A stretch of DNA of 64,000 nucleotides, taken from NCBI RefSeq assembly GCF_012933465.1, contig NZ_JABBND010000001.1:992001-1056000 (forward strand). Reading direction: 5' to 3'. The translations under genes were made by a program, and so were the position numbers. Under the pieces are notes generated by a model. The model was not told the DNA's origin and did no database searches. It saw only the letters and a list, made by a program, of their open reading frames with translations. Positions 12,320-55,174 of this stretch are shown in pieces (positions within the stretch are counted from its first letter, which is position 1; each line of letters starts with the position of its first letter). Source of the DNA: Actinomycetospora sp. TBRC 11914. GTDB taxonomy: Bacteria > Actinomycetota > Actinomycetes > Mycobacteriales > Pseudonocardiaceae.

Positions 12320-13161
12320 GCGACCCCGATCCGGACGACGTCGCGCGGGCGGCCGAGCTGCTCGTCGGCGCGACGTCGCTGGTCGTCGCGGCCGGGGCCG
12401 GGATGGGGGTGGACTCCGGGCTGCCCGACTTCCGCGGCCCCGAGGGGTTCTGGCGCGCCTACCCGCCCTACCGCCGGCTCGGGCTGCGCTTCGAGGAGCT
12501 GGCCGACCCGGAGCACTTCGACGACGACCCCGAGCTCGCCTGGGGCTTCTACGGCCACCGCCTGGCGCTCTACCGCGCGACGGTGCCGCACGCCGGCTTC
12601 GCGGTGCTGCGCCGGTGGGCGGAGCGGCTGCCGACGCGGGTCTTCACCTCGAACGTGGACGGCGCGTTCCAGAAGGCCGGGTTCGACGACGACGTCGTGA
12701 CCGAGTGCCACGGCGCCATCGGCACCCTGCAGTGCTCCCGGCCCTGCCACGACGGCACGTGGCCCGCGGACGACGTCGTCGTGGAGGTCGACGAGACGAC
12801 GATGCGCGGGGTGCCGCCGCTGCCGACGTGCCCGCGGTGCGGCGCCGTGGCGCGGCCGAACATCCTGATGTTCGGCGACGGGTCGTGGGTGCCGGGCGCC
12901 CACTCGCAGCGGCTGGCCGAGCACCGTGCCTGGCTGCGGTCCCGGGACGCCGCCGGGGTCGCCGTGGTGGAGCTGGGCGCTGGGACCGCGGTGCCGACGG
13001 TGCGCCGCCACGCCGAGCTGGCCTCGGCGTCGTCGGGCCGGCTCGTGCGGATCAACGTGCGCGAGCCGGAGGTGCGCCACGGGCACGGCGTCGGGCTCGC
13101 GGCCGGAGCGCGGGCGACGTTGGAGGCGCTGGACGAGCGGCTGGGCGCGTCAGCGGTGTGA
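12316..13161 (+). CDS. Sir2-family NAD-dependent deacylase
   Basis: A sirtuin of about 281 residues. The NAD-binding motif GAGMGVDSGLPDFRG (about 27-41), TSNVDG (in place of the usual TQNID, about 111-116), the catalytic His132 in ECHGA and four cysteines for structural zinc (140, 144, 172, 175) are visible. The enzyme would remove acyl groups from protein lysines. Conserved sequence begins well before the first in-frame ATG (12403), so an upstream start is needed. The only suitable one is CTG at 12316, overlapping the mhuD stop (CTGA) and preceded by GGGGAG. The stop codon lies inside the first 50-bp repeat. Confidence 0.85.
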   Translation: MSDPDPDDVARAAELLVGATSLVVAAGAGMGVDSGLPDFRGPEGFWRAYPPYRRLGLRFEELADPEHFDDDPELAWGFYGHRLALYRATVPHAGFAVLRRWAERLPTRVFTSNVDGAFQKAGFDDDVVTECHGAIGTLQCSRPCHDGTWPADDVVVEVDETTMRGVPPLPTCPRCGAVARPNILMFGDGSWVPGAHSQRLAEHRAWLRSRDAAGVAVVELGAGTAVPTVRRHAELASASSGRLVRINVREPEVRHGHGVGLAAGARATLEALDERLGASAV

Positions 13162-13198
13162 CACCGCAGACACTCAACGTCCGGGAAGCCACACTCAC
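13149..13198 (+). repeat. 50-bp intergenic element, copy 1
   Basis: Starts GTCAGCGGTG and ends CCACACTCAC, 50 bases. It shares ACNGCAGACACTSAACGTCC-type core sequence with the copies at 15786, 17823 and 55125. This copy carries the stop codons of both convergent neighbours: the sirtuin TGA at 13159-13161 on the + strand and the TGA of the AlkZ-like gene at 13195-13197 on the - strand. Confidence 0.75.
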
Positions 13199-13656
13199 GC
13201 CACCGCGACCCCGGCCAGCCGCAGCCCGCGGGCGGCCGCCACCCGCCGGGCCTCGTCGTCGAGATCCGGCCACGCCCCGCCGTCGAAACGCCTCCACCGC
13301 GAGCGTGAGCTCGCCGCCAGCGGCGCGATGTCGATCCGGTCGACGTCGGGACCCGACCACCCCAGCCGTGCCGCCGCGTCGTCGTCGCCCAGCGGGCGCA
13401 GCGCCGCGGCCCACCCGGGCCGGGACCCGGGCAGGTGCCAGTGGGGGGCGCCGCGGTGGGTCCAGGCGAGCTCGAGGCCGCGGTCGTCCGGTCCCACCGG
13501 CTCCCCCGGCACGCGGGCCGCGAGCGCGCCCGCGGCGGTCGGCCCGAGGTGCTGGAGGCCGAGCGCGAGCACCGCCGCGGCCCCGTCGTCGTCGGCCCGT
13601 CCCAGCCCCTGCGCGGCGATCCGGAACGCGACCGCCTGCTCCCTGGTGACCTCCAC
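13195..13656 (-). pseudogene. Truncated winged-helix / AlkZ-like DNA glycosylase family protein
   Basis: The first about 105 residues (VEVTREQAVAFRIAAQGLGR ... GLQHLGPTAAGALAARVPG ... LAWTHRGAPHWHLPG ... LRPLGDDDAAARLGW) look like the N-terminus of the winged-helix DNA-binding/AlkZ-like family. That family normally runs to about 330-370 residues. Here the frame ends at 153 residues, in a tail (SRWRRFDGGAWPDLDDEARR) that does not follow the family, and the stop codon lies inside a 50-bp repeat. I therefore read it as a broken remnant; a short functional paralogue cannot be excluded. GTG start with GGCGGAG just upstream. Confidence 0.55.
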
Positions 13657-13679
13657 TCCGCCGAGCCTGCCGTGCCGCT

Positions 13680-13698
13680 CCTGACACCTGCTGTCAGG
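13680..13698. promoter_or_regulatory. Palindromic operator-like site, TGACA-N5-TGTCA (1)
   Basis: CCTGACA, five bases, TGTCAGG: a perfect 7-base inverted repeat, 8 bases before the YihY start and between two divergent genes. The same TGACA-N5-TGTCA pattern recurs at 14753-14767 in front of the WYL regulator gene, which suggests one regulator binds both. Confidence 0.6.
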
Positions 13699-13705
13699 TC
13701 GGGCG

Positions 13706-14755
13706 ATGATGGCCCGTGTGAGCTCCGTGCGCGCCGTGCCCGAGACCACGGACATGCACGGCGAGGACCTCTCCGCCGACGACGCCTGGCACACCGCCCG
13801 CCGCGCCGGGCTCCGGGAGCTGGGGCGGACGGCGTTCCTGCGGTTCCGCTACGGCGACGGCTTCAGCCACGCCCGGGCGTTCGCGTTCCAGCTCGCGCTC
13901 GCGACGGTGCCGTTGATCATCGCCGGGAGCGGGCTCGCGTCCGCGGTGGGGGCGGAGTCGGTCGCGCAGGTCGTGGCGCGCACCGTCGTCGCCGTCTCCC
14001 CCGGCACCGGCGACCAGCTGCTCGCCGCGGTGGTGGACCGGGGCTCGGCGCCCGCCCCGGCGCCCGGCGAGGACCCCGAGCGGCCCGGCGAGGACCTCGG
14101 GGAGCTCGCGGTCGTCCTGGGCCTCGTCACGGCCTTCGTCGCGATGACGAGCGCGTTCGCCCAGCTGGAGCGCGGCGCGAACCGCGTCTACGGCGTGGAG
14201 CGCGACCGGCCGGCGCTGCGCAAGTACGGGCGGGCGGCGGTGCTGACGGCGACGGCGGGCACCGCGCTCGGCGTCGGGCTCGTCCTCATCGTGGCCGGCG
14301 GCGCGTTCGGGGACGCGCTCGAGGAGGTGTACCGGTGGGGCGACGCCGCGGAGACGGTGTGGGACGTCGTGCGCTGGCCGGTGGGCCTGGCGGCCCTCGT
14401 GGTCGCCGTCACGACGCTGTTCCGCTTCGCGCCGCGGCGGCGCCAGCCGGGCCTGTCCTGGCTGGGGCTCGGCGCCGCGCTGACGGTGGCGGCGTGGCTG
14501 GCGGCGTCCGGGGCGATCGCGGCGTACGTGTCGGTCTCCGGGGAGTTCTCGGCGATCTACGGGCCGCTCGCCGGGATCATGGTGCTGCTGCTGTGGGCGC
14601 TCGCGACGGGCGTGGCGCTCGTGGCGGGGTTCGCGGTGTCGGCGCAGCTCGAGGCGGTGCGCGCTGGAGTGGTCGAACCGCTGCTCACCGACCGTGACGA
14701 CGACGGGGTACCGGACCACCTCCAGCCCACCGAGCAGCACTCCGCGGGAGGGTGA
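13706..14755 (+). CDS. YihY/BrkB-family membrane protein
   Basis: A 349-residue integral membrane protein of the YihY/virulence factor BrkB type with about six transmembrane helices, for example residues about 58-80, 130-150, 180-200, 225-245, 258-280 and 295-320. The family hallmarks FAFQLALATVPLIIAGSGL and GPLAGIMVLLLWAL are present. The loop between helices 1 and 2 holds a Pro/Asp/Glu-rich insertion (APAPAPGEDPERPGEDLG). Family function is unknown; a transport or envelope role is assumed. Two tandem ATGs (13706, 13709) and a GTG at 13718 are possible starts. It is probably controlled together with the WYL regulator gene downstream through the shared TGACA/TGTCA sites. Confidence 0.8.
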   Translation: MMARVSSVRAVPETTDMHGEDLSADDAWHTARRAGLRELGRTAFLRFRYGDGFSHARAFAFQLALATVPLIIAGSGLASAVGAESVAQVVARTVVAVSPGTGDQLLAAVVDRGSAPAPAPGEDPERPGEDLGELAVVLGLVTAFVAMTSAFAQLERGANRVYGVERDRPALRKYGRAAVLTATAGTALGVGLVLIVAGGAFGDALEEVYRWGDAAETVWDVVRWPVGLAALVVAVTTLFRFAPRRRQPGLSWLGLGAALTVAAWLAASGAIAAYVSVSGEFSAIYGPLAGIMVLLLWALATGVALVAGFAVSAQLEAVRAGVVEPLLTDRDDDGVPDHLQPTEQHSAGG

Positions 14756-14767
14756 CAACCCGTGTCA
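14753..14767. promoter_or_regulatory. Palindromic operator-like site, TGACA-N5-TGTCA (2)
   Basis: TGACA-ACCCG-TGTCA overlaps the YihY stop codon and lies 24 bases before the GTG of the WYL regulator. A TAGGAC hexamer about 8 bases before that GTG could be its -10, putting the site immediately upstream of the promoter. This fits autoregulation. Confidence 0.55.
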
Positions 14768-14791
14768 GGTGATGCGGTAGGACTGTGACCC

Positions 14792-15772
14792 GTGCGCGCG
14801 AGCCGGCTGCTCTCCCTGCTGCTGATGCTGCAGTCGCGCGGGCGCATGACCGCGCGGGAGCTGGCCGACGAGCTCGAGGTCTCGATCCGCACGATCTACC
14901 GCGACATGGATGCACTCTCCGCGTCCGGTGTCCCGGTGTACGCCGACCGCGGGCCCGACGGCGGGTACTCGCTCCTCGAGGGCTACCGCACCCAGCTGAC
15001 CGGGATGTCCGCCGAGGAGGCCGACTCGCTGGCGCTGGCCGGGATGCCGGGTCCGGCGGCCGAGCTCGGGCTCGGGCGGGTGCTCGCGGCCGCCCAGCTG
15101 AAGGTGCAGGCCGCGCTGCCAACCGAGCTCGCGGAGCGCTCGCGCCGCATCGCCGAGCGCTTCCACCTCGACGCGCCCGGGTGGTTCCGGGAGGCCGACC
15201 ACGTCCCGACGCTGACCGGGATCGCCGACGCGGTGTGGAACCAGCGGGTGGTGCGGATCCGGTACCGGCGCTGGGGCGACGAGGAGGTCGAGCGGGAGCT
15301 GGAGCCGCTCGGCGTCGTGCTCAAGGGCGGGGTCTGGTACCTGGTCGCGGCGCCCGGGGGTGGCGGGTCGGCGCGGACGTACCGGGTGGCGCGGGTCCTG
15401 TCGCTGGAGACGCTGGACGCGCGGTTCGACCGGCCCGAGGGCTTCGACCTCTGGCGGTACTGGAACGAGCGCTCCTCGGAGCTCACCGCCGCCCTGTACC
15501 AGGCCGAGGCGGCGGTCCGACTCTCGCCGTCCGGGATGGAGCTCGCCCCGGTGGCGCTGCGCCCGCACACGGCGCGGGCGCTCGCGGAGCGGGAGTGGCC
15601 GGTCGACGACGACGGGTGGACGTGCGCGGTGATCCCGATCGAGTCGATCGCGGGGGCCCGCTCGGAGCTGCTGGCGCTGGGCGGCGAGGTGGAGGTGGTG
15701 TCGCCGGCGGCGTTGCGGGAGCAGATGCGGGAGGCGGCGTCGGCGTTGGGGGCGTTGTACGGGCCGGGGTGA
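14792..15772 (+). CDS. HTH/WYL-domain transcriptional regulator (YafY type)
   Basis: A 326-residue regulator: N-terminal DeoR-like winged helix (about 1-60, MTARELADELEVSIRTIYRD as the recognition region), a linker domain, a WYL domain (about 135-235, with VVRIRYRRWGD and LKGGVWYLVAA) and a WCX C-terminal extension (about 240-320). WYL domains sense nucleic acid or small ligands. The ligand here is unknown. Its own gene and the YihY gene share a palindrome, so autoregulation is likely. A GTG start with no good ribosome site, close to a possible -10, suggests a leaderless message. Confidence 0.88.
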   Translation: MRASRLLSLLLMLQSRGRMTARELADELEVSIRTIYRDMDALSASGVPVYADRGPDGGYSLLEGYRTQLTGMSAEEADSLALAGMPGPAAELGLGRVLAAAQLKVQAALPTELAERSRRIAERFHLDAPGWFREADHVPTLTGIADAVWNQRVVRIRYRRWGDEEVERELEPLGVVLKGGVWYLVAAPGGGGSARTYRVARVLSLETLDARFDRPEGFDLWRYWNERSSELTAALYQAEAAVRLSPSGMELAPVALRPHTARALAEREWPVDDDGWTCAVIPIESIAGARSELLALGGEVEVVSPAALREQMREAASALGALYGPG

Positions 15773-15785
15773 GGGTGGGGTGGCC

Positions 15786-15835
15786 GTCAGCGGTGTCGCA
15801 TCGCAGACACTGAACGTCCGGAAATCCACACTGTC
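15786..15835 (+). repeat. 50-bp intergenic element, copy 2
   Basis: GTCAGCGGTGTCGCATCGCA at the left end, then GACACTGAACGTCC, GGAAAT and CCACACTGTC; 50 bases. It lies 13 bases after the WYL stop, between two genes on the same strand, so it is not limited to convergent gene ends. Confidence 0.8.
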
Positions 15836-15847
15836 GTTCGGGTGATC

Positions 15848-15888
15848 GGGCTGTCCACAGCGGCACCGCGCACCTGGGCTGTCCACAG
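15848..15888. repeat. Pair of 13-base direct repeats with DnaA-box-like cores
   Basis: GGGCTGTCCACAG occurs at 15848-15860 and again at 15876-15888, 28 bases apart. The TGTCCACAG core is one base from the actinobacterial DnaA box (TTGTCCACA). There is no AT-rich unwinding region, so this is not an origin; it may be a binding site controlling the downstream AbiEi-like gene. Confidence 0.5.
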
Positions 15889-15940
15889 CCTGGTCGCCGG
15901 TCCTCCCGGTCCCCGCGACGACGACCGCACCCTCTCGTGC

Positions 15941-16912
15941 ATGCGACGCGGACATTGGGCCGACGACCTGCAGCGGCTGGTCGAGGCGAGCTGGGATCGT
16001 GTGATCAGCGTGCACGAGCTCGTCAGGCTCGACGTCCCGGAGAGGACCGCCTACCGGAGAACGGCGGAGGACGGGCCCTGGCAGCTCCTGCTCCCCGCGA
16101 CGATCCTCCTGAGCAACGGGGAGCCGACGTTCCGCCAGTGGCAGATCGCGGCCCTGCTCCACGCCGGCCCGGACGCGGTGCTCACCGGATTGGGCGGCGC
16201 GCAGTTGCACGGGCTCCGGCGCGGCGGTGAGCCGGAGAAGCACCACGTCCTCATCCCCGCGACGCGGAACGTGAAGAGCTGCGGGCCCGTCATCGTCGAG
16301 AGGACCAGGCGGCCCGTGAAGCGCCTGGAACGGGACGGTCTCCCGGTGGCCCCGATCTCGCGGTGCCTGCTCGACCACGTCCGCCGCACGAAGGACGAGG
16401 AGCAGATCGCCGCGCTGCTCACCGAGCCCGTACAGCGCCGGATGGTCCCCAAGGAGATGCTGGTCGCCGAGCTGGAGACGGGGACACGCAAGGGTTCGGC
16501 AGCCCCTCGACGAGTCCTGCGCGCCGTGTCCGCGGGGGTGGAGTCCCCGACGGAGTTCCAGTACTACCGGTTCTGGAACTCCCTCTCCGGCCTGCCCACC
16601 ATCCGCTGCAACGTCCCGGTCTACGACCTCGACGGGACCCGGTTGGGGATCGTCGACTTCCTCGCCGACGAGCTCGGCTTCGCGTGGGAGTCCGATTCGG
16701 TGGAGGAGCACTTCGCGACGCCGGAGCAGGTCCAGCGAACGGCCGAGCGCGCCCGCCGCCTTCGCGGGGCGGGCCTCTACGTCCTGAGCACCCGGCCCCA
16801 CCAACTGCGCGACGACCCGCGAGGTGTCGAGACCGACATCCGCCAGGGGCTCGAGATCGCCGCGGCGATGCCGCCGCCGCGGGTGACCTACGGCCCGCCC
16901 CATGCGGCCTGA
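15941..16912 (+). CDS. AbiEi-like / DUF559-type protein, possible type IV antitoxin relative
   Basis: A 323-residue cytoplasmic protein with a winged-helix-like N-terminal part (ISVHELVRLDVPERTAYRRT), a middle domain like the AbiEi antitoxin group (LLLPATILLSNGEPTFRQWQ, AALLHAGPDAVLTGLGGAQL) and a C-terminal endonuclease-fold region (SPTEFQYYRFW ... IVDFLADELGFAWESDS ... AERARRLRGAG). This architecture is common in actinobacteria, usually as a lone gene without a neighbouring AbiEii toxin, and none is seen here. The ATG at 15941 was chosen; an in-frame GTG at 15842 would place the two DnaA-box-like repeats inside the gene. The function is uncertain. Confidence 0.6.
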   Translation: MRRGHWADDLQRLVEASWDRVISVHELVRLDVPERTAYRRTAEDGPWQLLLPATILLSNGEPTFRQWQIAALLHAGPDAVLTGLGGAQLHGLRRGGEPEKHHVLIPATRNVKSCGPVIVERTRRPVKRLERDGLPVAPISRCLLDHVRRTKDEEQIAALLTEPVQRRMVPKEMLVAELETGTRKGSAAPRRVLRAVSAGVESPTEFQYYRFWNSLSGLPTIRCNVPVYDLDGTRLGIVDFLADELGFAWESDSVEEHFATPEQVQRTAERARRLRGAGLYVLSTRPHQLRDDPRGVETDIRQGLEIAAAMPPPRVTYGPPHAA

Positions 16913-17011
16913 CGCGGACCGCAGGGCGCCGGAGCCGTCGTCGAGGAACCGCCTCCGCTAGCGTCGGTCGGGGACGGCGGGCGGGCCGCCGGAGCACCCC
17001 GGGGGCGCGGC

Positions 17012-17812
17012 GTGGCGGAGTCGGGCGGGACGTCGGGTGAGGCCGACCTCGAGGGCGCGGCCACGACGGACCCCACCGACCCCGGGACGTCCCGACGGCG
17101 ACCGTGGTCCCGTCGGCCCCGGAGCCCCGAGGAGATCGAGGCCGCGAAGCAGCAGTGGCGCGACATGCGGCCCTGGGACAGCCCGATGGCCGGGGCCGAC
17201 AAGGCCCTGATCGGCTCCCTCGTCGCGGTCGTCGCGCTGATGCTGCTGACCCTGCCCGTCCGGCCGTTCCTCATCGCCACGCACCCGGTAGCGCTGAGCG
17301 CGGTCACGGGAAGCCTCTCGGCGGTCGGGTCGGCGGCCGCGTTCGCACGGGTCGGCGGCACCGACCTCTGGGTGGTGGTGGCCACGGGCGTGCTCGGCAT
17401 GATCAAGTTCGACTGGCTGTTCTGGTGGGCCGGACGACGGTGGGGCGCGAAGGGCGTGCGCTTCTTCACCCCGCCGGGTCGTGCCGGACGGTTCGTCGCC
17501 CGCGTCCGATCGTGGCCGCCGTGGACGACGGCGCTGCTCGTGGTCGCGGCGGCGTTCCCCGGGATCCCGTCGGCGCCGCTGTTCCTGCTCGCCGGGCTGG
17601 CCGGGATGCCCCTCGTGGCCTTCCTGGTGCTCGACGCGATCGGGTCGGGCCTCGTCGTGGGCCTCGTGGCCGGGTTGGGTTACGGGCTGGGTCAGACGGC
17701 CGTCGACGTCGTGCTGACGATCAACCAGTACGCCCTCTGGGTCAGCATCGCGCTCATCGTCGTCGTCTCCGTCCAGGCAGGGCGCCGTGGTCCGCCCGGC
17801 TCCGCTCCCTGA
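17012..17812 (+). CDS. DedA/VTT-like membrane protein
   Basis: A 266-residue protein with a charged, Ser/Arg-rich cytoplasmic N-terminus (about 1-60) followed by about five hydrophobic helices. The motif FDWLFWWAGRRWGAKGV and the re-entrant AAAFPGIPSAPLFLLAGLAG segment resemble the VTT/DedA family, which includes lipid scramblases and undecaprenyl-phosphate flippases. Similarity is partial, so a distant branch is likely. GTG start. It runs convergently toward clpC and is separated from it by a 50-bp repeat and a strong terminator. Confidence 0.65.
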   Translation: MAESGGTSGEADLEGAATTDPTDPGTSRRRPWSRRPRSPEEIEAAKQQWRDMRPWDSPMAGADKALIGSLVAVVALMLLTLPVRPFLIATHPVALSAVTGSLSAVGSAAAFARVGGTDLWVVVATGVLGMIKFDWLFWWAGRRWGAKGVRFFTPPGRAGRFVARVRSWPPWTTALLVVAAAFPGIPSAPLFLLAGLAGMPLVAFLVLDAIGSGLVVGLVAGLGYGLGQTAVDVVLTINQYALWVSIALIVVVSVQAGRRGPPGSAP

Positions 17813-17822
17813 TCCGTCCAAG

Positions 17823-17872
17823 ATCAGTGTGCATTTTCGGACACTCAACGTCTGCGATGCGACACCGCTGAC
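17823..17872 (-). repeat. 50-bp intergenic element, copy 3 (inverted)
   Basis: Read on the - strand: GTCAGCGGTGTCGCATCGCA, then GACGTTGAGT, GTCCGAAAAT and GCACACTGAT. It is the only copy in this orientation in the window, and lies between the DedA-like gene and the clpC terminator. Confidence 0.8.
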
Positions 17873-17890
17873 AACACACCCGGCCCCACA

Positions 17891-17939
17891 CACGACGGCG
17901 CCCCGGCCACCACGAGGGTGACCGGGGCGCCGGGTCGTG
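17891..17939. terminator. Bidirectional terminator between dedA-like gene and clpC
   Basis: A long stem: CACGAC, GGCGCCCCGG and CCACC on the left pair with GGTGA, CCGGGGCGCC and GTCGTG on the right, around an ACGAG loop, with only small bulges. It sits between convergent stops (17812 and 17954), so it probably terminates both transcripts. Confidence 0.8.
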
Positions 17940-17953
17940 CGGGCGTCAGGCGC

Positions 17954-20512
17954 TCAGCCGTCGGCCTGGTCGGTCGTACCGGCGGTCGCGACCTCCGGGG
18001 TGTCCGGCACCGGGGTCGGCTTGGCCTCCCCGCGGAACGTGAACGTCGCCGACTCGGGAGCCGGCCGCGTCACGCCCTTGTCGTCGACCTCGGGGGTCCA
18101 GCCCTCGACGTCGACCAGCACGATCTGCCCGGGCTCGATCTCCCCGAACAGGATCTTCTCGGACAGCTGGTCCTCGATCTCGCGCTGGATCGTGCGACGC
18201 AGCGGCCGGGCGCCGAGCACCGGGTCGAAGCCGCGCTGGGCGAGCAGCTTCTTCGCGGCGTCGGTGAGCTCGATCGACATGTCCTTGTTCTGCAGCTGCT
18301 TCTCGGTGCGCCCGATCAGCAGGTCGACCATCTGCACGATCTCGTCCTCGCGCAGCTGGTGGAACACGACGATGTCGTCGATGCGGTTGAGGAACTCGGG
18401 ACGGAAGTGCTTCTTGAGCTCATCCGTGACCTTGTTCTTCATCCGCTCGTAGTTCGAGCCGGTGTCCTGGCCCGACTGGAAGCCGAGCCCGACCGCCTTC
18501 GAGATGTCCTGCGTGCCGAGGTTCGACGTGAACACGATGACCGTGTTCTTGAAGTCCACGACACGACCCTGGCCATCCGTCAGCCGGCCGTCCTCGAGCA
18601 CCTGCAGCAGGGTGTTGTAGACCTCGGAGTGGGCCTTCTCGATCTCGTCGAAGAGGACCACCGAGAACGGCTTGCGCCGCACCTTCTCGGTGAGCTGGCC
18701 GCCCTCCTCGTAGCCGACGTACCCGGGAGGGGCACCGAAGAGCCGCGAGGCGGTGTAGCGGTCGTGGAACTCGCCCATGTCGATCTGGACGAGCGCGTCG
18801 TCGTCACCGAACAGGAACTCGGCGAGCGCCTTGGTCAGCTCGGTCTTCCCGACGCCCGAGGGCCCCGCGAAGATGAACGACCCCGACGGGCGCTTCGGGT
18901 CCTTGAGGCCGGCCCGCGTGCGGCGCATCGACTGCGAGACGGCCTTGACGGCCTCCTCCTGGCCGATGATCCGCTTGTGGAGCTCGTCCTCCATGCGGAG
19001 CAGACGGGTCGTCTCCTCCTCGGTGAGCTTGAAGACGGGGATGCCGGTCCAGTTGGCCAGCACCTCGGCGATCAGCTCGTCGTCCACCTCGGCGACGACG
19101 TCGAGGTCGCCGGACTTCCACTGCTTCTCACGCTCGGACTTCTGGCCGAGGAGCTGCTTCTCCTCGTCCCGCAGGCGCGCGGCCTTCTCGAAGTCCTGCG
19201 CGTCGATCGCCGACTCCTTCTCACGACGCACGTCGGAGATCTTCTCGTCGAACTCGCGCAGGTCCGGCGGCGCGGTCATGCGACGGATGCGCATGCGGGC
19301 GCCGGCCTCGTCGATCAGGTCGATCGCCTTGTCCGGCAGGAACCGGTCGTTGATGTACCGGTCGGCCAGGGTGGCCGCTGCGACCAGCGCCGGATCGGTG
19401 ATCGAGACGCGGTGGTGCGCCTCGTACCGGTCGCGCAGCCCCTTGAGGATCTCGATGGAGTGCGCCACCGAGGGCTCCCCCACCTGGATCGGCTGGAAGC
19501 GGCGCTCGAGCGCGGCGTCCTTCTCGACGTGCTTGCGGTACTCGTCGAGGGTCGTCGCACCGATGGTCTGCAGCTCGCCGCGGGCCAGCATCGGCTTGAG
19601 GATCGACGCGGCGTCGATCGCGCCCTCGGCGGCACCCGCGCCGACGAGCGTGTGCAGCTCGTCGATGAACAGGATGATGTCGCCGCGGGTGCGGATCTCC
19701 TTGAGGACCTTCTTGAGGCGCTCCTCGAAGTCACCGCGGTAGCGCGAGCCCGCCACCAGCGACCCGAGGTCGAGGGTGTAGAGCTGCTTGTCCTTCAGCG
19801 TCTCGGGGACCTCGCCCTTGACGATGGCCTGGCCGAGGCCCTCGACGACGGCGGTCTTGCCGACGCCGGGCTCGCCGATGAGGACCGGGTTGTTCTTGGT
19901 CCTCCGGGAGAGGACCTGCATGACCCGCTCGATCTCCTTCTCCCGGCCGATGACCGGGTCCAGCTTGCCCTCGCGGGCGGACTGGGTGAGGTTGCGACCG
20001 AACTGGTCGAGCACGAGGGACGACGACGGCGTGCCCTCGCCGCGCTGGCCGCCGGACTCCGCGGGCTCCTTGCCCTGGTAGCCCGAGAGCAGCTGCAGCA
20101 CCTGCTGGCGCACGCGGTTGAGGTCCGCGCCGAGCTTGACGAGGACCTGGGCGGCGACGCCCTCGCCCTCACGGATCAGCCCGAGCAGGATGTGCTCGGT
20201 GCCGATGTAGTTGTGGCCGAGCTGCAGCGCCTCGCGCAGCGACAGCTCCAGCACCTTCTTGGCACGCGGGGTGAACGGGATGTGCCCGCTGGGGGCCTGC
20301 TGACCCTGGCCGATGATCTCCTCGACCTGCTGGCGCACGCCCTCGAGGGCGATGCCCAGCGACTCGAGGGCCTTGGCGGCGACGCCTTCGCCCTCGTGGA
20401 TCAGCCCGAGCAGGATGTGCTCGGTCCCGATGTAGTTGTGGTTGAGCATCCTGGCCTCTTCCTGGGCCAGGACGACCACCCGCCTCGCGCGGTCGGTGAA
20501 CCTCTCGAACAT
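17954..20512 (-). CDS. clpC: ATP-dependent Clp protease ATP-binding subunit ClpC
   Basis: ClpC unfolds proteins and feeds them into the ClpP1P2 protease. The 852-residue protein has two N-terminal Clp repeats (about 1-145, with the tandem [13 protein letters not shown] motifs), a first AAA+ domain with Walker A GEPGVGKT, a UVR-containing middle domain (about 420-470), and a second AAA+ domain with GPSGVGKT followed by a C-terminal D2-small domain. The ClpP-docking loop is expected near VGLGFQSG. The Asp/Pro-rich tail is short. Its upstream region is about 450 bases and gene-free. Confidence 0.98.
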
Positions 20513-42212: not shown

Positions 42213-42239
42213 ATGTCAGCGGTGGCCCACCGCTGACAT
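42213..42239. terminator. Perfect 27-base palindrome
   Basis: ATGTCAGCGGTGG and CCACCGCTGACAT are exact reverse complements around a single C, 13 bases after the stop of the DUF5666-like gene, where the efflux operon should end. GTCAGCGGTG is also the left end of the 50-bp element family, so this may be two such ends joined head to head. Confidence 0.75.
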
Positions 42240-42252: not shown

Positions 42253-42900
42253 CTACCGCGCCGGCAGGTCCACCCGCGTCGCGAGCGTCTCGCCGCGCTG
42301 GTCCCGCTCGCCGGTGATGGTCACCTGGGTCCCGACGACGAGTGCCGCGTTCCCGTTCGCGGCCGGCGTGGCCACCACCGTGCCCGGGGTCGTCTGCAGA
42401 GCGGTCTGCGTGCCGTCCGCTGCCCGCACGGTGACCACGGGCGAGCCGCCGGGCGGGGTGTCGACGGACTGGATGACGCCGATGGTGGGCGGCACGGAGC
42501 CGGGACCGGTCGCCGGGGCGGTCGCACGCCCGATCAGCAGACCGGCACCCAGGAACACGATCGCGCCGAGCACGAACAGCAGGATCCGGGTGGACCGGGC
42601 CATGCCGGGCCGGTTCAGGCGCTCGCGGACGTCCGTGTCGTCCATGGGGCGGTCGAGCACCTCGGCGGAGGTGGGCGGCGGGCCCGACGCCCGAGTGGGG
42701 TCCTCGTCCCACCCCCGGGCGGGGCCGCCGCCGCTGCCGACGGTGTCAGGGCCGAACGCGGGCTGCGGGCTGGGCCGCCGGATCGGGCCGGTGTCGGAGG
42801 AGTCCTCCCGCCCGGAGCCCGCGTGCCCGTCCGACCACGACGTCCGTGTGGTCTCGGCGGTGGACGTCGATTCGGTCCGGGCCTCGTCCTCGTCCGCCAT
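42253..42900 (-). CDS. Membrane-anchored DUF5666-like protein
   Basis: A 215-residue protein with a long acidic, Pro/Ser-rich cytoplasmic N-terminus (about 1-100), one membrane helix (about 104-127, STRILLFVLGAIVFLGAGLL) and a small outer beta-barrel-like domain (about 138-214, with GVIQSVDTPPGGSPVVTVRA and VGTQVTITGERDQRGETLAT) like DUF5666/OB-type domains. The ATG at 42900 is chosen over the GTG three bases earlier because AGGAGG then has ideal spacing. It is the last gene of the ABC exporter operon, 30 bases after the permease, so it may assist export. Confidence 0.7.
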   Translation of the reverse strand: MADEDEARTESTSTAETTRTSWSDGHAGSGREDSSDTGPIRRPSPQPAFGPDTVGSGGGPARGWDEDPTRASGPPPTSAEVLDRPMDDTDVRERLNRPGMARSTRILLFVLGAIVFLGAGLLIGRATAPATGPGSVPPTIGVIQSVDTPPGGSPVVTVRAADGTQTALQTTPGTVVATPAANGNAALVVGTQVTITGERDQRGETLATRVDLPAR

Positions 42901-42930
42901 CACGATTCCTCCTGGTGTGGGGCTGCGGGG

Positions 42931-46679: not shown

Positions 46680-47234
46680 TCAGGCGTACACCGATGGGTC
46701 CAGCGTCCCGATGTAGGGCAGATCCCGGTAGCGCTCGGCGTAGTCGAGCCCGAACCCGACGACGAACTCGTTCGGGATGTCGAATCCCACGTACGCGACG
46801 TCGACGTCGAGCTTGGCCGCCTCGGGCTTGCGCAGCAGCGTGACCACCTGCAGCGACGCCGGCCCGCGCGACTCCAGGTTCTTCCGCAGCCAGGACAGCG
46901 TCAGCCCGGAGTCGATGATGTCCTCGACGATCAGGACGTGCCGGTTCGAGATGTCCCGGTCGAGGTCCTTGAGGATCCGCACGACCCCCGAGGAGGACGT
47001 GGCCGACCCGTACGAGCTGATCGCCATGAACTCGAGCTGCGTCGGCAGCGGCAGCCGGCGCGCGAGGTCGGTCATGAACATGACCGCGCCCTTGAGCACG
47101 CCGACCAGGAGCAGGTCCGGCTCGCCCGGCCCCGGCTCGCCGTAGTCGGCGGCGATGCCGTCCGCCAGCTCCGCGATCTTGTCCTGGATCTCGTCGGAGG
47201 TGATCAGCACGGACGCGATGTCGCCGTCGTACAC
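46680..47234 (-). CDS. hpt: Hypoxanthine phosphoribosyltransferase
   Basis: Hpt salvages hypoxanthine (and guanine) with PRPP to IMP/GMP. The 184-residue protein shows [40 protein letters not shown] and the PRPP loop [18 protein letters not shown] (about 99-116), then the purine-contacting [23 protein letters not shown] start with GAAGGAG upstream. It is 30 bases after tilS; in many bacteria tilS-hpt-ftsH are adjacent, but here a 6-kb insert separates hpt from ftsH. Confidence 0.97.
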
Positions 47235-47264
47235 CTTGCGCGGACTCCTTCGTCGGCTCGGCGG

Positions 47265-49336: not shown

Positions 49337-49360
49337 TCCTCCACCGTACGGCGGCCGCGC

Positions 49361-50878
49361 TCAGCGGCAGCCGCACCCGCGCAGCGCCGCGGCCAGCGCG
49401 TCCAGTCGCGGGCGGGCCCCGACCGGGTCGGGGCCGTTGGACATGAACGCGAAGACGAGCAGGCGCCCGTCGTCGTCGGGGACCACCCCGGCGAGCGCGT
49501 TGGTGCCGGTGAGGGTCCCGGTCTTGGCCCGGACGTACCCGCGGGCGTCGCCGTTGGGCGTGTCCGGGGTGAAGCGGTCGACGAGCGTGCCGGTGCCGGC
49601 CGCGATCGGGAGCCCGTCGAGGACCGGGCGCAGGGCCGGGGTCCGCGGGTCGGCGCCGAGGGGCGCCGCGGCCGGGGTGAGCACCGACGCGAGGACCGAG
49701 GCCGGGATGCGGTCGTTCGTCGAGAGCCCCGAGGTGTCCGAGAGGGTCACCGACGACACGTCGACCCCGTGCGCGGCGAGGGTCTTCGTCACCGACGACG
49801 CGGCGCCGTCGAACGAGGCCGGGGCGCCGGCCTTCCGGGCGACCTCCCGACCGATCGCCTCGGCGAGGACGTTGTCGGAGTTGGTCAGCGCGGTGTGGAT
49901 CAGCTCGGTCAGCGGCGGCGACTGGACGGTGCCGAGCACCCGCGCGTTCGCGGGCCCGGACCCCTGCTCGACCTGCACGGCGGCGCCGAGCCGCTGACCC
50001 AGCGCGTGCCCGACGTCCTCGGTGGGGGTGGCAGTGCGGGCGCCGTCGAGGGCGGTCGGGTCGAGCCGGCCGCCGTCGAGCATCGCCGGGACCATCGGGG
50101 TGAGGTTGCCGCCAGCGATGTCGGCCGGATCCCAGCCGGCGGCGAGCAGGGGGCCGCTGTAGCGGGAGTCGTCGACGTAGACGGTGGACAACGGCGCGGT
50201 CCCGCGGGCGGCCCGGACCTGGGCGACGAGGTCGTCGAGGTGGGCGGCGCCCGGGTAGACCGAGTCGCGGCCGTCGGGCAGCGAGGACAGCGTGGGGTCG
50301 CCGCCGCCGACGAGCACCACCGAGTCGGGGGTCGGGCCGGCGACGACGGTCGTCGTGAACCGGGTCTCGGGGTCGAGCGAGAGCAGCGCGGCCGACGTCG
50401 TCAGGAGCTTCGTCGACGACGCGGGCACCTGCGGCTCGGCCGGGTTGCGCTGCCACAGCGGCTGCTGGGGGTGCGCGGGGTCGACGACGACGCCCGTCAG
50501 GTCACCCAGGCCGGCGACGCGGCCGTCGAGCACGCCCGCCACCCCGGCCGCCGTCGGCGTGGGCGCCCCGGCGGGGAGCGGGCCGAGCTGCGGGACGAAG
50601 GCCACGGGCGCCGGCGGGTCCACCGCCGCGGACACGGGGAGGCCGAGCCGGCGGGCCAGGCCCGGCGCGGTCAGGACGGCCGCGGTCCCTGCCCCGACCA
50701 CCAGCAGGAGCACGACCAGCCCGACGAGCAGCCGTTGGGCGATCCGCCGCGAGCGGGGGACCTCGGCGCGGTGACCGCCGCCGCGACGCCTCGTCGGGGG
50801 TTCGTCGGGTGTGCCTGGCGTGCCGTCGTCACCCGCCGGGGTGGACCCCGCACGGTGACCGACACCACTCGCCGTCAC
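49361..50878 (-). CDS. dacB: D-alanyl-D-alanine carboxypeptidase/endopeptidase (PBP4 type)
   Basis: A 505-residue low-molecular-weight penicillin-binding protein of the PBP4 (S13) class, trimming or opening peptidoglycan cross-links. It has a cytoplasmic Arg/Gly-rich start, one membrane anchor (about 48-70), and the serine-enzyme motifs SxxK (SSTK, 154-157), SxN (NSDNVLAEAI) and KTG (RAKTGTLTGTNALAG). The S13-type insertion between SxxK and SxN is present. GTG start with GGAAGGAG. It starts the dacB-protease-tilS-hpt operon and is divergent from ppa. Confidence 0.94.
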   Translation of the reverse strand: MTASGVGHRAGSTPAGDDGTPGTPDEPPTRRRGGGHRAEVPRSRRIAQRLLVGLVVLLLVVGAGTAAVLTAPGLARRLGLPVSAAVDPPAPVAFVPQLGPLPAGAPTPTAAGVAGVLDGRVAGLGDLTGVVVDPAHPQQPLWQRNPAEPQVPASSTKLLTTSAALLSLDPETRFTTTVVAGPTPDSVVLVGGGDPTLSSLPDGRDSVYPGAAHLDDLVAQVRAARGTAPLSTVYVDDSRYSGPLLAAGWDPADIAGGNLTPMVPAMLDGGRLDPTALDGARTATPTEDVGHALGQRLGAAVQVEQGSGPANARVLGTVQSPPLTELIHTALTNSDNVLAEAIGREVARKAGAPASFDGAASSVTKTLAAHGVDVSSVTLSDTSGLSTNDRIPASVLASVLTPAAAPLGADPRTPALRPVLDGLPIAAGTGTLVDRFTPDTPNGDARGYVRAKTGTLTGTNALAGVVPDDDGRLLVFAFMSNGPDPVGARPRLDALAAALRGCGCR

Positions 50879-51106
50879 ACAGCTCCTTCCCGTCGCTGCG
50901 CTCGACCCCGGGCCACCTCACCCTTGCGACCAGACCCACTCCCCGCCGTCACCGCGGAGCCGTCGCGATGCGACACACTAGACGCGACCGACGACGGTTC
51001 CCGGGTCCGGTCGGGTGACGAGGCCCGGACACGGACGGGAACGATCCCCGAGCGGGGACACAGCAGCCGCGGCCCGGGCCGCGGCGTGGAGCAGTGAGGA
51101 CGCGCC

Positions 51107-51589
51107 GTGGAGTTCGACGTTCTGATCGAGATCCCCAAGGGTCAGCGGAACAAGTACGAGATGGACCACGAGTCCAACCGCCTGCGTCTGGACCGCACCC
51201 TCTTCACCGCCACGCAGTACCCGGCCGACTACGGCTACATCGAGAACACCCTCGGCCTCGACGGCGACCCGCTGGACGCGCTGGTGCTCGTCCAGGAGCC
51301 GACCTTCCCCGGCTGCCTGATCCTCTCCCGCGCCATCGGCATGTTCCGCATGACCGACGAGAAGGGCGGCGACGACAAGGTGCTCTGCGTCCCCTCGGGC
51401 GACCCGCGCCAGGAGCACCTGCGCGACATCCACCACCTCTCGGAGTACGACCGCCTCGAGATCCAGCACTTCTTCGAGGTCTACAAGGACCTCGAGCCCG
51501 GCAAGAGCGTCGAGGGCGCGTCCTGGGTCGGGCGTTCGGACGCCGAGCAGGAGATCCGCGAGTCGCTCAAGCGCGCCGAGAACCACTGA
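51107..51589 (+). CDS. ppa: Inorganic pyrophosphatase
   Basis: Hydrolyses pyrophosphate from biosynthesis, pulling those reactions forward. The 160-residue class I enzyme shows [20 protein letters not shown], the metal-binding [20 protein letters not shown] with the Asp cluster and [15 protein letters not shown]. Two His residues in DIHHLSEY are usual for mycobacterial-type PPases. GTG start with GTGAGGA upstream. The divergent gap to dacB (228 bases) holds both promoters. The gene ends 11 bases before a strong hairpin. Confidence 0.97.
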
Positions 51590-51600
51590 GGCGCCGACGT

Positions 51601-51648
51601 ACGAACGGCCGGTTCGTGACCTTCTTCGGTCACGAACCGGCCGTTCGT
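51601..51648. terminator. ACGAACG-type hairpin between ppa and MFS gene
   Basis: A perfect 20-base stem: ACGAACGGCCGGTTCGTGAC (51601-51620) and its complement (51629-51648) around an 8-base loop CTTCTTCG. It lies between convergent stops (51589 and 51672), so it should terminate both. It shares ACGAACG...CGTTCGT ends with the hairpin at 2504-2556. Confidence 0.85.
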
Positions 51649-51671
51649 GCTGACGCGGGTGGGCCCCGCGG

Positions 51672-54467
51672 CTACCGCGTGACCGGCAGCGGCGTCGTGC
51701 CGGCGTCGAGGTCGGTCTCGGTCGGGCCGTCGAGCGCCGACGGGGTGGCCGGACGCGGGGGCTCGACGACCAGCTCGACGGGCTCCCCGCCGTCGCGCTC
51801 CACGGTCACCTGGGCCGTCACGGGGGCATAGCCGCTCGCGGTGAGCAGGTAGCGGCCCTCGGTCAGGTCCTCGATCGCGAAGCGCCCGGTGCCGTCGGTG
51901 ACGGTCGAGGCGACGACGCGGCCGTCGGCGCCCATGAGCACCACGAGCGACTCGGGCACCGACCGGCCCGAGCTCGACGTGACCCGGCCGCGCACCGCGT
52001 GGCGCACGACCGGCACCCGCACGTCGTGCCGCGTGCCCCGCCGGCCCGCGGGCGACGGCGCGGCCACGACGAGCCGGTCGGCCACCGGCTCCCGCCCGGG
52101 CGCCAGCACCGCGACGGTGTAGGTGCCGGGCTCGAGCTCCGGGCACTCCCACGTGCCGTCCGTGCCGGTCCGCCGGACCGCGCGCACCCCGCCGGAGGCG
52201 TCGGTGACGGTCACGGTCGCGCCGACCACCGGGAGGTCGGCGACGTCACGCACCGAGCCGCTGACCGGGGTGGCCCGGCGCAGCACGAACCGGCGGTGCA
52301 CCGGCGCCCCCTCGAGGGCGACCAGCTCGGCGTGCGGGCGGAAGACCTGCGGGTTGGCGACGACGACGTAGCTGCCGGCGCCCGGCGCGTGCAGGCGGAA
52401 CGAGCCGTCGGCCGCGGAGAACGTGCGGTCGACGACGGTGCCGTCCAGGGCGTGCAGGGCCATCGGGACCCCGACGAGGCCGTCGTCGACGCCGTGGCCG
52501 AAGCGGTCCGCGTCGGAGCGCTCCGCGGTGTCGGCGAGGGTGCCGAGGACGACGGAGTCACCGTGGTGGGCCGGGGCGACCTCGGGGGCCTCGTGCCGGC
52601 CGTGCGTCGAGCGCGGCACCGGCGAGGGCCGGGCACCGTCGACGAGCCGGGCCGTGCGGTCGCTGCCCGCGGCCCCCGCCGCGCCCACCGGGGGTGAGGA
52701 CACCGGGACGTCGAGACCGCCGCGCGCCGGGCCGGTGACCTCGGCCGCGGAGTCGACCGAGCCCGGCCCGCGACCCGGACCGGCCTCCTCGGCCTGCCGG
52801 GCCTGGATGCCCGACGTCGTGCGCAGCGGGACCTCCTTGAGGAACCAGATCAGCACGAACCCGACGGCGATGACGATGGCCGCGACCAGGAAGACGAGGT
52901 CCATGGACTGGGCGAAGCCGGCGAAGTAGGGCTCGGCGATCCGCGGGTCCATCCGCTGCAGGATCGAGGAGTCCTGCACGACCTGTGCCACGCCGACGGC
53001 CGGGTTCGCGCCCGCCGCGTTGGCCGGGTTCGCCGCGACGGACGGGTCGGCCAGGGCGGCCTGGAAGGACGGCGAGGCGGCGGCGCCCCGGAAGGCCGAG
53101 ACGATGTTGCCGCCGACCGTCGAGAACAGGATCGACAGGAACACCGAGACGCCGAGCGTCCCGCCCATCTGGCGGAAGAACGTGGCCGACGCGGTAGCGA
53201 CACCCATGTCCGAGGCCGGCACCGCGTTCTGCACCGCGAGCACCAGGGTCTGCATGCAGTTCCCGAGCCCCAGGCCGAACACGACCATGAGGACCGCGAT
53301 CTCCCAGTACGGCGTGTCGGCGTGCAGCAGGAAGTGGAAGAGGAGCATCCCCACGGTCATCAGGCCGAGGCCGATCACCGGGAACACCTTGTAGCGCCCG
53401 GTGCGGCTGGTGAGCTGACCGGAGACGATCGACGCGAGCATCAGCCCGCCGACCAGCGGGATCATCTGCAGGCCCGCCTGCGTCGGGGTCGACCCGTTCA
53501 CGATCTGGAGGTACTGCGGGACGATCGCGATGCCGCCGAACATGCCGATGCCGGTGATGATCGCGATGACCGTGGTGAGCGAGAAGACGCCGTTGCGGAA
53601 CAGCCGTAGCGGCAGCAGGGCGTCGTCGCCGTAGGCCCGCTCCGCGACCACGAACGCGATCAGCCCGACGACACCGATGCCGTAGCAGAGCAGCGCGCTG
53701 CCCGAGCCCCAGCCCCAGCTCTGGCCCTGCTCGGCGACGATCAGCAGCGGGACGAGCGCCACGGCCAGCGAGACCGCGCCCGGCCAGTCGATGCGCCGCT
53801 CGCGCCGGGTGTGCGGGAGGTTCAGCACCCGCCACACGACGGCGAACGCGGCGATCCCGATCGGGACGTTGACGAGGAAGACCCACCGCCAGCCGTCGAT
53901 GCCGATGATGGAGTCGGTCCCGGCGAAGAACCCGCCGACGACCGGCCCGATGACGCTGGACGTCCCGAACACCGCGAGGAAGTAGCCCTGGTACCGGGCG
54001 CGCTCCCGCGGCGGCACGATGTCGCCGATGATCGTGAGCGCGAGGCTCATGAGCCCGCCGGCGCCGATGCCCTGGAGGGCGCGGAACCCCGCGAGCTCGT
54101 ACATCGACGTCGAGATCGTGCAGAGGACCGAGCCGATGACGAAGACGCCGATCGCGAACAGGAAGAACGGCTTGCGGCCGTAGAGGTCGGAGAGCTTGCC
54201 GTACAGCGGCGTCGAGATCGTGGCGGTGATCAGGTAGGCCGTCGTCGCCCAGGCCTGCAGGTTCAGACCGTTCAGGTCGTCGGCGATGGTGCGGATCGAC
54301 GTGGAGACGATGTTCTGGTCGAGCGCGGCCAGGAACATGCCGAGCAGGAGCCCGGACAGGATCGTCAGCACCTGGCGGTGGGTGAAGCCGCCCGTCGCGT
54401 TGCCCGCCGGCGCGGGTCTCGCGCCGGTGGTGCCGACCGCCGGGGACGACGCGGTCGTGGTGGTCAT
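51672..54467 (-). CDS. DHA2-type MFS transporter fused to carboxypeptidase-regulatory-like domains
   Basis: A 931-residue protein. Residues about 25-560 form a 14-helix drug:proton antiporter (DHA2/EmrB type) with ALDQNIVSTSIRTIADDLN, YGKLSDLYGRKP (motif A) and ALQGIGAGGLMSLALTIIGD (motif C region). A cytoplasmic Pro/Gly linker follows. The last about 280 residues hold three tandem Ig-like carboxypeptidase-regulatory domains (repeated pattern G-x-V-x-D-x-x-G-x-F-x-x-x-x-L-x-x-G-x-Y). The tail lies after an even number of helices, so it should be cytoplasmic, which is odd for this domain type. ATG overlaps the MarR stop (ATGA). Confidence 0.85.
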   Translation of the reverse strand: MTTTTASSPAVGTTGARPAPAGNATGGFTHRQVLTILSGLLLGMFLAALDQNIVSTSIRTIADDLNGLNLQAWATTAYLITATISTPLYGKLSDLYGRKPFFLFAIGVFVIGSVLCTISTSMYELAGFRALQGIGAGGLMSLALTIIGDIVPPRERARYQGYFLAVFGTSSVIGPVVGGFFAGTDSIIGIDGWRWVFLVNVPIGIAAFAVVWRVLNLPHTRRERRIDWPGAVSLAVALVPLLIVAEQGQSWGWGSGSALLCYGIGVVGLIAFVVAERAYGDDALLPLRLFRNGVFSLTTVIAIITGIGMFGGIAIVPQYLQIVNGSTPTQAGLQMIPLVGGLMLASIVSGQLTSRTGRYKVFPVIGLGLMTVGMLLFHFLLHADTPYWEIAVLMVVFGLGLGNCMQTLVLAVQNAVPASDMGVATASATFFRQMGGTLGVSVFLSILFSTVGGNIVSAFRGAAASPSFQAALADPSVAANPANAAGANPAVGVAQVVQDSSILQRMDPRIAEPYFAGFAQSMDLVFLVAAIVIAVGFVLIWFLKEVPLRTTSGIQARQAEEAGPGRGPGSVDSAAEVTGPARGGLDVPVSSPPVGAAGAAGSDRTARLVDGARPSPVPRSTHGRHEAPEVAPAHHGDSVVLGTLADTAERSDADRFGHGVDDGLVGVPMALHALDGTVVDRTFSAADGSFRLHAPGAGSYVVVANPQVFRPHAELVALEGAPVHRRFVLRRATPVSGSVRDVADLPVVGATVTVTDASGGVRAVRRTGTDGTWECPELEPGTYTVAVLAPGREPVADRLVVAAPSPAGRRGTRHDVRVPVVRHAVRGRVTSSSGRSVPESLVVLMGADGRVVASTVTDGTGRFAIEDLTEGRYLLTASGYAPVTAQVTVERDGGEPVELVVEPPRPATPSALDGPTETDLDAGTTPLPVTR

Positions 54468-55009
54468 CGGTCCTCCTCCGCGCCCTGGGGGGCGGGGACG
54501 TCGTGGGCTTCGGGGTGGTGCGCCTCGAGCGCGGTGGTGAAGCGGTCCATGAGCTCGACGAGCCGCTCGCGGTCGGTCTCGTCCCAGTCGCTCGTGATGC
54601 GGCTGATCTCGCGGTTGCGGAGGTCGCGGTTGGCCTCGAACACCCGGTGGCCCTCGTCGGTGGCGGCCAGCAGGCACGCGCGGCCGTCCGCGGGGTCGGG
54701 ACGTCGCTCGACGTACCCGATCCGTACGAGCGCGGCGATCTGCCTGCTGACGGTCGAGGGGTCGGAGTGCACGGCCTCGGCGAGCGCGTTCGACCGGTGC
54801 GGCCCGTCGATGACGAGCCGGGCCAGCAGGACGTACGCGGCGCGCTCGACGCCGTCGTCACCCACCCGCCCCTTGGACACCCGCTTGCGCTCCATGAGCC
54901 GGATGAGCCGGATGAGCTGGAGGCCGATCCGGTCCGAGGTGGCCCAGCGCTCGTCGGCCCCCTCGGGGATCGGGGGCGGTCCGGGCGGGGCGCCGATCGC
55001 TGCGTTCAT
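54464..55009 (-). CDS. MarR-family repressor of the MFS gene
   Basis: A 181-residue winged-helix protein: recognition region HRSNALAEAVHSDPSTVSRQ, wing YVERRPDPADGRACLLAATD, C-terminal helices ITSDWDETDRERLVELMDRF. It is directly coupled to the transporter by a 4-base overlap, so it should repress its own operon and release it when a substrate or drug binds. ATG start. Two TACAA repeats lie 12 and 29 bases upstream. Confidence 0.9.
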   Translation of the reverse strand: MNAAIGAPPGPPPIPEGADERWATSDRIGLQLIRLIRLMERKRVSKGRVGDDGVERAAYVLLARLVIDGPHRSNALAEAVHSDPSTVSRQIAALVRIGYVERRPDPADGRACLLAATDEGHRVFEANRDLRNREISRITSDWDETDRERLVELMDRFTTALEAHHPEAHDVPAPQGAEEDR

Positions 55010-55020
55010 TGCGTGCTCCG

Positions 55021-55048
55021 TACAATCGCTTGGTCTCTACAACTATGC
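55021..55048 (-). promoter_or_regulatory. Candidate control region of marR-MFS operon
   Basis: TACAA occurs at 55021-55025 and 55038-55042, 17 bases apart, in a short AT-richer stretch; on the - strand a -10-like CATAGT (55043-55048) lies just upstream of both. The spacing fits a regulator binding near the transcription start. No full palindrome was seen. Confidence 0.35.
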
Positions 55049-55124
55049 ACCTCGACCGGGGCCCGGGCCACTCGGGTACCCGGTCGGGGCGGTGTGATCC
55101 GCGAGTCAGCCGGGCGGGTGGGCT

Positions 55125-55174
55125 GTCAGCGGTGTCGCATCGCAGACGTTGAGCGTCCGGAAAGCCACACTCAC
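55125..55174 (+). repeat. 50-bp intergenic element, copy 4
   Basis: GTCAGCGGTGTCGCATCGCA, then GACGTTGAGC, GTCCGGAAAG and CCACACTCAC; 50 bases. It lies between divergent genes, 40 bases upstream of the enoyl-CoA hydratase ATG, where it could influence that promoter. The first 20 bases are identical to copies 2 and 3. Confidence 0.8.

Follow-up and report, generated by a model that had tools for sequence, protein, structure and literature searches.

The question raised by this locus is what a 50-bp element that recurs four times, in both orientations, over a few tens of kilobases of Actinomycetospora DNA might be, and whether it is bound, transcribed or moved. The window, i.e., the whole 64,000-nucleotide stretch that was analysed, comprises positions 992001-1056000 of contig C1 of genome G000 (G000:C1:992001-1056000; 6.52 Mb in 63 contigs). 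Re-reading of the sequence confirmed the four copies at the positions given by a first-pass annotation, with a gap-free alignment in which the leftmost 20 bases have the same letters in three of the four. The features are as follows, A and B being the two halves of the unit.

13149..13199, plus strand: copy 1, of the form A half, 7-nt spacer, B half; it spans the gap of a convergent gene pair and overlaps both stop codons.
12403-13161 (plus) and 13195-13656 (minus): the genes flanking copy 1, a Sir2-like gene and an ORF, respectively.
15786..15836, plus strand: copy 2, 13 nt 3' of the stop codon of a WYL-domain regulator gene (14792-15772, plus) and codirectional with it.
17822..17872, minus strand: copy 3, in a convergent pair formed by gene 17012-17812 (plus) and a Clp ATPase gene (17954-20512, minus).
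55125..55175, plus strand: copy 4, flanked by two divergent genes, one of MarR type (54464-55009, minus) and one for an enoyl-CoA hydratase/isomerase (55215-56024, plus).
55125..55147, plus strand: A half of copy 4, a 23-nt hairpin, GTCAGCG-N9-CGCAGAC.
55148..55154, plus strand: 7-nt spacer of copy 4, GTTGAGC (family pattern RYYSRRY).
55155..55175, plus strand: B half of copy 4, which pairs back with A.
42215..42237, no strand assigned: lone A-type hairpin, GTCAGCGGTGGSCCACCGCTGAC, 15 nt past the stop codon of the minus-strand gene 42253-42903.

In Pfam, two neighbouring genes matched below threshold: gene 17012-17812 beside copy 3 matched VTT, and gene 16001-16912 beside copy 2 scored 20 bits for the AbiEi antitoxin C-terminal domain, against a cut-off of 22.2. 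A weight matrix built on the four copies scored those same, non-independent copies at 74-82 bits. With the reverse strands of the copies excluded, the best other score in the window was 7.1, at the lone hairpin (42215), and the maximum in 20 single-base shuffles, read on one strand, was -0.5. The lone hairpin is a perfect A-type hairpin beside which no B half was recognised. The four copies first counted stand, and the window contains a fifth relative.

The genome-wide profile search that the first-pass annotation had proposed showed the copies to be part of a dispersed family with at least 49 distinct sites in G000. This figure consists of 46 sites from 48 tabulated rows, in which L094 and L100 are second overlapping matches, together with L104, L107 and L110, which gave no row. 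Allowing up to 3 mismatches, a 26-nt half-site pattern matched the genome 68 times (32 forward, 36 reverse), and its backwards control did not match; a sequence model gave 119 matches at E<=1 in G000, palindromes being counted on both strands. The exact pattern with a loose spacer was found in 10 stretches of genome_contigs, a collection that may omit the window's own genome, all from the single genome Actinomycetospora sp. GZL_HY_2_bin.147. A-half matches in G000 fell within the 49 listed units in 56 of 57 cases, the other being the lone hairpin, and all 33 in the sister genome G013 lay inside model matches (4 partial, 2 of these at contig edges). No larger element bearing A ends was present among the A-half matches of G000 and G013. 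A larger insertion sequence (IS) with A ends was therefore ruled out as the source in these two genomes, the A-half matches being confined to the short units and the lone hairpin.

The unit is an imperfect palindrome composed of an A half, itself a 23-nt hairpin (GTCAGCG-N9-CGCWGAC), a 7-nt spacer (RYYSRRY) and a B half of about 20 nt that pairs with A. Across 21 aligned copies, the A half reads GTCAGCGGTGTCGCATCGCAGAC and, beyond the 7-nt spacer, the B half reads GTCCGGAAAGCCACACYGTCG. The ends had at first been described as weakly inverted and the element as not a simple hairpin. This description did not survive, since the symmetry extends over about 39 bases (GTGT...ACAC) around a GAC-N7-GTC dyad centre, which makes the dyad one of hairpin type. 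Five sites among the at least 49 are of an A-A type (L089, L092, L096, L109 and L111). The pattern RYYSRRY fits the 7-nt spacer in 43 of 48 rows, with CA (24/48) or TG (15/48) at spacer position pair 2-6, and the outer dinucleotides are mostly direct repeats (AC..AC, GT..GT) that do not pair. The AC..AC and GT..GT forms are reverse complements of one another, and both occur against the same arms. A second, 28-nt spacer form, ACNGGATYCRATNCAGCACGCCGATAGG, was found with small variations at two sites in G000 (L107, L110) and at eight G013 sites (L115-L121 and the copy 1 ortholog in L123); at some of the G013 sites this spacer ends in AGCACGCCGATAGG. Among the A-half matches of G000 and G013, unlinked copies carry a near-identical 21-nt arm.

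Orthologous units in other Actinomycetospora species have the same architecture with different arms in which the changes are compensatory. The left 20 bases, initially taken to be nearly invariant, are thus one arm of a dyad, near-uniform within each genome and different between species. Pairing was analysed in an alignment, A3, of 32 varied units from 14 genomes; most of the 11 units left out of the 43 collected were palindromic units read in reverse or extra copies from genomes already represented. With all 43 units pre-filtered for at least 9 of 18 dyad matches, a bias that favours the long dyad and survives shuffles and slides, the long dyad paired 76.0% of A3 cells, compared with 66.2 +/- 0.9 in shuffles and 26-44% in slid versions. 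Cells in which both sides had changed numbered 62 for the long dyad versus 25.2 +/- 5.2 in shuffles (a value reached in 0 of 500) and at most 15 in slid versions, while pairs with a change on both sides numbered 11 versus 8.3 (reached in 11 of 500 shuffles). The A hairpin alone was 88.5% paired versus 86.3 when shuffled, and its covariation was weaker. In a strand test (G-U versus A-C), paired cells numbered 438 of 576 when the A-to-B strand was read and 457 of 576 for its complement, so there is no sign that a sense RNA is the folded strand, and a strand-specific RNA hairpin is unsupported. Covariation that lacks strand bias indicates that the pairing pattern is preserved, whether in DNA or in RNA from either strand. 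A structured RNA of a known family was rejected, since Rfam 15 gave no matches at gathering score in the window and none at E<=0.5 in five loci.

We then related the units to gene calls made with a simple codon-usage script. By gene context, the 48 rows comprise 18 tandem, 8 convergent and 4 divergent rows and 18 inside ORFs, some of the latter reflecting mis-called starts, as the script leaves start codons uncertain. Since called genes cover 90% of the window, the sequence for which this coverage was computed, the intergenic share is well above the expectation for random placement. Intergenic placement, noted for the first four copies, does not hold throughout the family: 18 of the 48 rows (17 sites) fall within called ORFs. 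Units at 16 of 18 tandem sites lie within 18 nt of the upstream stop codon, and 15 of 16 asymmetric tandem units run in the direction of the gene, with the A half beside the stop (one-sided p 2.6e-4).

This placement would be expected of a selected 3'-UTR hairpin, i.e., a transcript end, a 3' protection of mRNA or a bidirectional terminator, that evolves as structure at sites kept by descent; the compensatory changes in the arms and the occupation of the copy 1, 2 and 3 sites across species are in keeping with it as well. Against it, at nine or more of the 17 in-ORF sites both flanks score positive for coding in a shared frame, and five of these copies (L072, L076, L077, L091 and L105) are directed with the gene. 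Copies inside ORFs with continuing coding signal can hardly be efficient terminators there. Among the nine in-frame sites, the coding score is weak for L076, L097 and L105; the remaining eight in-ORF sites are close to gene ends or have doubtful starts. Relative to the best Pfam stretches, L082 and L096 are internal, and the other seven in-frame sites are external or interdomain, as follows.

L072: between BTAD and AAA domains.
L091: between LNT_N and CN_hydrolase domains.
L097: preceding Thump_like.
L106: just past Arabinose_trans.
L076, L077 and L105: outside the matched domain.
L082: within ArsB/CitMHS.
L096: within AMP-binding, in a variable stretch preceding the YTSGSTG of an NRPS adenylation domain.

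Orthologous stretches in relatives were taken as best BLAST hits, among which paralogues may occur. At the copy 3 site, sequence was readable in 15 of 17 relatives, seven of which (G013, G006, G008, G009, G004, G012 and G002) have units with arms of their own. The outer arms there are CGGTGT/ACACYG in G000 versus CGAAGT/ACTTCG in G008, G009, G004, G012 and G002. Within the 200 nt read at this site, no unit was found in G007, G003, G014, G016, G001, G005 and G010, some of which have other neighbouring genes, and G015 has a different palindrome. Eleven relatives were comparable at the copy 1 site, where units occur in G013 (28-nt spacer) and in G003, G007, G001 and G016 (7-nt spacer, other arms), a related unit with a 9-nt spacer occurs in G015, and other palindromes or none were recognised in G008, G010, G012, G006 and G011. 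At the copy 2 site, a unit lies immediately 3' of the stop codon in all five relatives with both flanks matched; the G013 unit has the 28-nt spacer, and those of G008, G012, G002 and G009 have other arms. The G013 ortholog of copy 4 was assigned by eye. Other palindromes were seen at such intergenic sites (e.g., GAAGGGCCCCTTCGCTC..., GCAGCGAA...TTCGCTGC; L141/L137 in G015, L128 in G008, L130 in G010 and L133 in G006), as if these places were hot spots for several kinds of hairpin.

Thirteen further sites of G000 yielded 78 orthologous stretches from eight genomes. The strict pattern found a unit in 15 of these 78 site-by-genome pairs, to which about nine were added by eye, along with three remoter look-alikes at L083. 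G013 was the sole carrier under the strict pattern at L085, L086, L099 and L101 (8, 5, 6 and 8 relatives, respectively). At L073, by eye, six of seven relatives, including the sister G013, have no unit past the stop codon, and the more distant G012 has one. Filled and empty orthologous sites imply that sites have been gained or lost, though some are shared deep in the genus. A target-site duplication could be sought at L073, the single site that is cleanly empty in the sister G013, where the flanks are too diverged to define one.

Two of the in-frame copies are missing from the same genes in most relatives. Between anchors in the Lnt-type gene lie 75 nt in G000 and G013 versus 36-48 nt in the remaining 14 of the 15 relatives, a length that is a multiple of three in 13 of these 15, the exceptions being G014 (41) and G012 (47), in which the anchors are uncertain. 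In the ArsB/CitMHS-type gene, the corresponding stretch measures 75 nt in G000, 108 nt in G013, where the spacer is of the 28-nt form, and 15-33 nt in 10 of 12 relatives; G015 has 72 nt of largely other sequence, and the length is a multiple of three in all 12. Orthologous sites, those of copies 1 and 2 among them, thus carry the 7-nt spacer in G000 and the 28-nt spacer in G013.

For the 3'-UTR hairpin, these comparisons add that most of the 78 orthologous gene ends gave no unit under the strict pattern. Paired cells show no preference for the sense strand, and the near-identity of a 21-nt arm among unlinked copies would not be expected from structure alone. As an account of the family, we therefore regard it as having a minor share of the probability, and as the foremost of the rivals considered here; a functional 3'-UTR hairpin is possible for the copies past stop codons.

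The sequence AGCACGCCGATAGG occurs in all 18 genomes of the genus, at 3-104 places each (24 in G000), with controls at 0. In 258 genomes drawn from across the order, it was found in six; two of these belong to the genus and the other four have a single place, so that the 256 genomes outside the genus have at most one place apiece. Many of its contexts, judged by eye, lie within palindromes, viz. in the spacer, in the loop of the A hairpin (L165, L343) or in a B-like part (L324); others are differently flanked. L317, L343, L353 and L107 are examples of its occurrence across the genus; in some contexts GGAGCTCGACC comes next, with an ATG after that in a few. Certain genomes of other genera show enrichment of the centre GACRYTSARYGTC, with 122 places in G124 versus 1 for the control; of nine such centres inspected by eye in three genera, eight are flanked by palindromic arms that differ from the Actinomycetospora arms. 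The GAC-N7-GTC centre was seen in other genera of the family, in up to 122 copies (G124, G178 and G153; L155-L157, L162, L163 and L167-L169), and these examples have near-perfect palindromic arms of their own.

The REP transposase domain Y1_Tnp (PF01797) was found in 0 of 18 genomes of the genus, with 5 of 14 control genomes positive, and a RAYT/REP origin was ruled out on this result. The viral_contigs collection gave 18 matches to the 15-nt motif and 9 to the centre pattern, none with palindromic arms by eye, and a plasmid search with copy 4 gave no match at E<=0.01; a phage or plasmid source was rejected on these searches.

Several properties of the units are established. Their sites are scattered over the genome and built on a single plan, an A hairpin joined to a B half by a 7- or 28-nt spacer; orthologous sites may be filled in one species and empty in another; some copies lie in frame within ORFs; and the potential to pair survives the divergence of the arms between species. 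We consider it probable that they are short non-coding insertion palindromes, similar to REPs or MITEs, that spread within Actinomycetospora genomes and are moved in trans by a putative enzyme. Presence and absence, the in-frame copies and the species-specific uniformity are what favour this reading. The first-pass idea that the left 20 bases form a transposition end gained from the insertion-like behaviour, i.e., the filled and empty sites and the two in-frame copies missing from most relatives' genes, but there is no fixed end motif; over all the evidence, transposition is broadly favoured.

The putative trans-acting enzyme would act on single-stranded or cruciform DNA, recognising it by its hairpin and spacer, and would copy or insert the unit. 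Insertions might persist where they are least harmful, right past stop codons or, if the frame stays open, between domains and in stretches that vary. At occupied sites, older units may give way to new arm lineages and to either spacer type, which would give each species its near-uniform set of units. Some observations pull the other way, among them that Y1_Tnp was not found in the genus and that no target-site duplication could be delimited. Different arms at one site in several species, and the L073 unit present in G012 without G013, also fit an old functional element with repeated loss, and the gene-directed bias past stop codons could be functional rather than a matter of tolerance.

A further possibility, which we put forward tentatively and hold to be the less likely course, is a system of two layers. 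Species-specific hairpin arms would act as carrier, and a conserved central cassette (the 7-nt RYYSRRY or the 28-nt form ending in AGCACGCCGATAGG) would be swapped at occupied sites by a putative hairpin-recognising enzyme other than RAYT. Because the 51- and 72-bp units are 21 bp apart in length, exchange of one for the other would keep a reading frame open, and such a system could live both in genes and past them.

Two other explanations were weighed. The units might be binding sites of a sequence-specific nucleoid or regulatory protein with a specificity that drifts between species, for which the dyad symmetry and an A arm near-invariant in each genome would speak. We think this improbable, as some 50 sites would need to change jointly and A-A, A-B, 7-nt and 28-nt versions coexist. 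A location within ORFs or after stop codons is also unusual for operators, and that is where copies are found. Lambda-type recombination proceeds through a 7-bp overlap, which the 7-nt spacer may resemble, and a fixed-length, letter-variable spacer between inverted arms (43/48 RYYSRRY), swapped at orthologous loci with the arms kept, could point to core sites of a tyrosine-type site-specific recombinase, with inverted GAC/GTC arms round a 7-bp exchange region and the 28-nt spacer as an inserted cassette. This is very unlikely, because recombination would rearrange the flanks, yet neighbours are kept on both sides at copies 1 and 2 and in the in-gene comparisons, if not in every relative at copy 3.

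As mobile palindromes, the units can be set beside known systems. MITEs are short, non-autonomous inverted-repeat insertions that have terminal inverted repeats in common with autonomous IS. The Actinomycetospora units are likewise short, non-autonomous, inverted-repeat insertions; unlike for MITEs, no parent IS with an A end was found in G000 or G013. Mycobacterial interspersed repetitive units (MIRU) are short units of more than one length class directly 3' of stop codons and in gene direction. The Actinomycetospora units match this description in lying past stops, being gene-directed and having two lengths, and differ in being palindromic and having copies within ORFs; overlap of stop and start was seen, by eye, in relatives at L073 and L079 only. 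Rickettsia palindromic elements are palindromes located in frame inside ORFs, a feature that the present units share, although the host group is another and the units lie mainly past stops. These elements are named in PMC3733652.

That paper describes GTAG- and CGTC-tagged REPs as short dispersed palindromes, mostly past coding regions and in some cases intragenic, for which its authors suggest roles as linkers or loops. The units described here are similarly short, dispersed and palindromic, mostly past genes and in some cases inside them, and those in Lnt-type, EmbC-type and NRPS genes present such repeats as a source of new linker peptides. In the passages that name phyla for the GTAG and CGTC groups, Actinobacteria are not among them, and untagged REP-like sequences are mentioned for M. 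tuberculosis (PMC3733652). A table in RepRanger (PMC12306157) names three Actinomycetota genomes of other groups. Judged from titles and the openings of abstracts, with subscription literature mostly outside the scope, no published description of the present family was found, and the unit sequences as text are absent from the literature searched. Unlike GTAG REPs and their RAYTs, none of the 32 aligned units ends in GTAG (one has it internally) and the 18 genomes of the genus have no cognate Y1_Tnp gene.

The CGTC group, as presented in the passages on it (PMC3733652), has a stem of 8-9 bp, a loop of 4-5 nt and no dedicated transposase. The Actinomycetospora units resemble it in being partly intragenic and in having no associated Y1 transposase, Y1 being the sole family searched. 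They differ from it in that CGTC stands at the B end in only five of the 32 aligned units, each of them from G000 or G013, with TGTC in one other, and in that they have an imperfect dyad of 18 pairs with a 7- or 28-nt spacer. On the strength of those passages, CGTC-tagged REPs are the closest known system, though the defining tag and the stem size are not shared. What moves palindromic repeats such as those of the CGTC group (PMC3733652, same passages) is a puzzle. In the present actinobacterial family the search for the mover becomes tractable by comparison, since many related genomes are at hand in which orthologous sites may be filled or empty and two spacers interchange, and in which no Y1 transposase was found.
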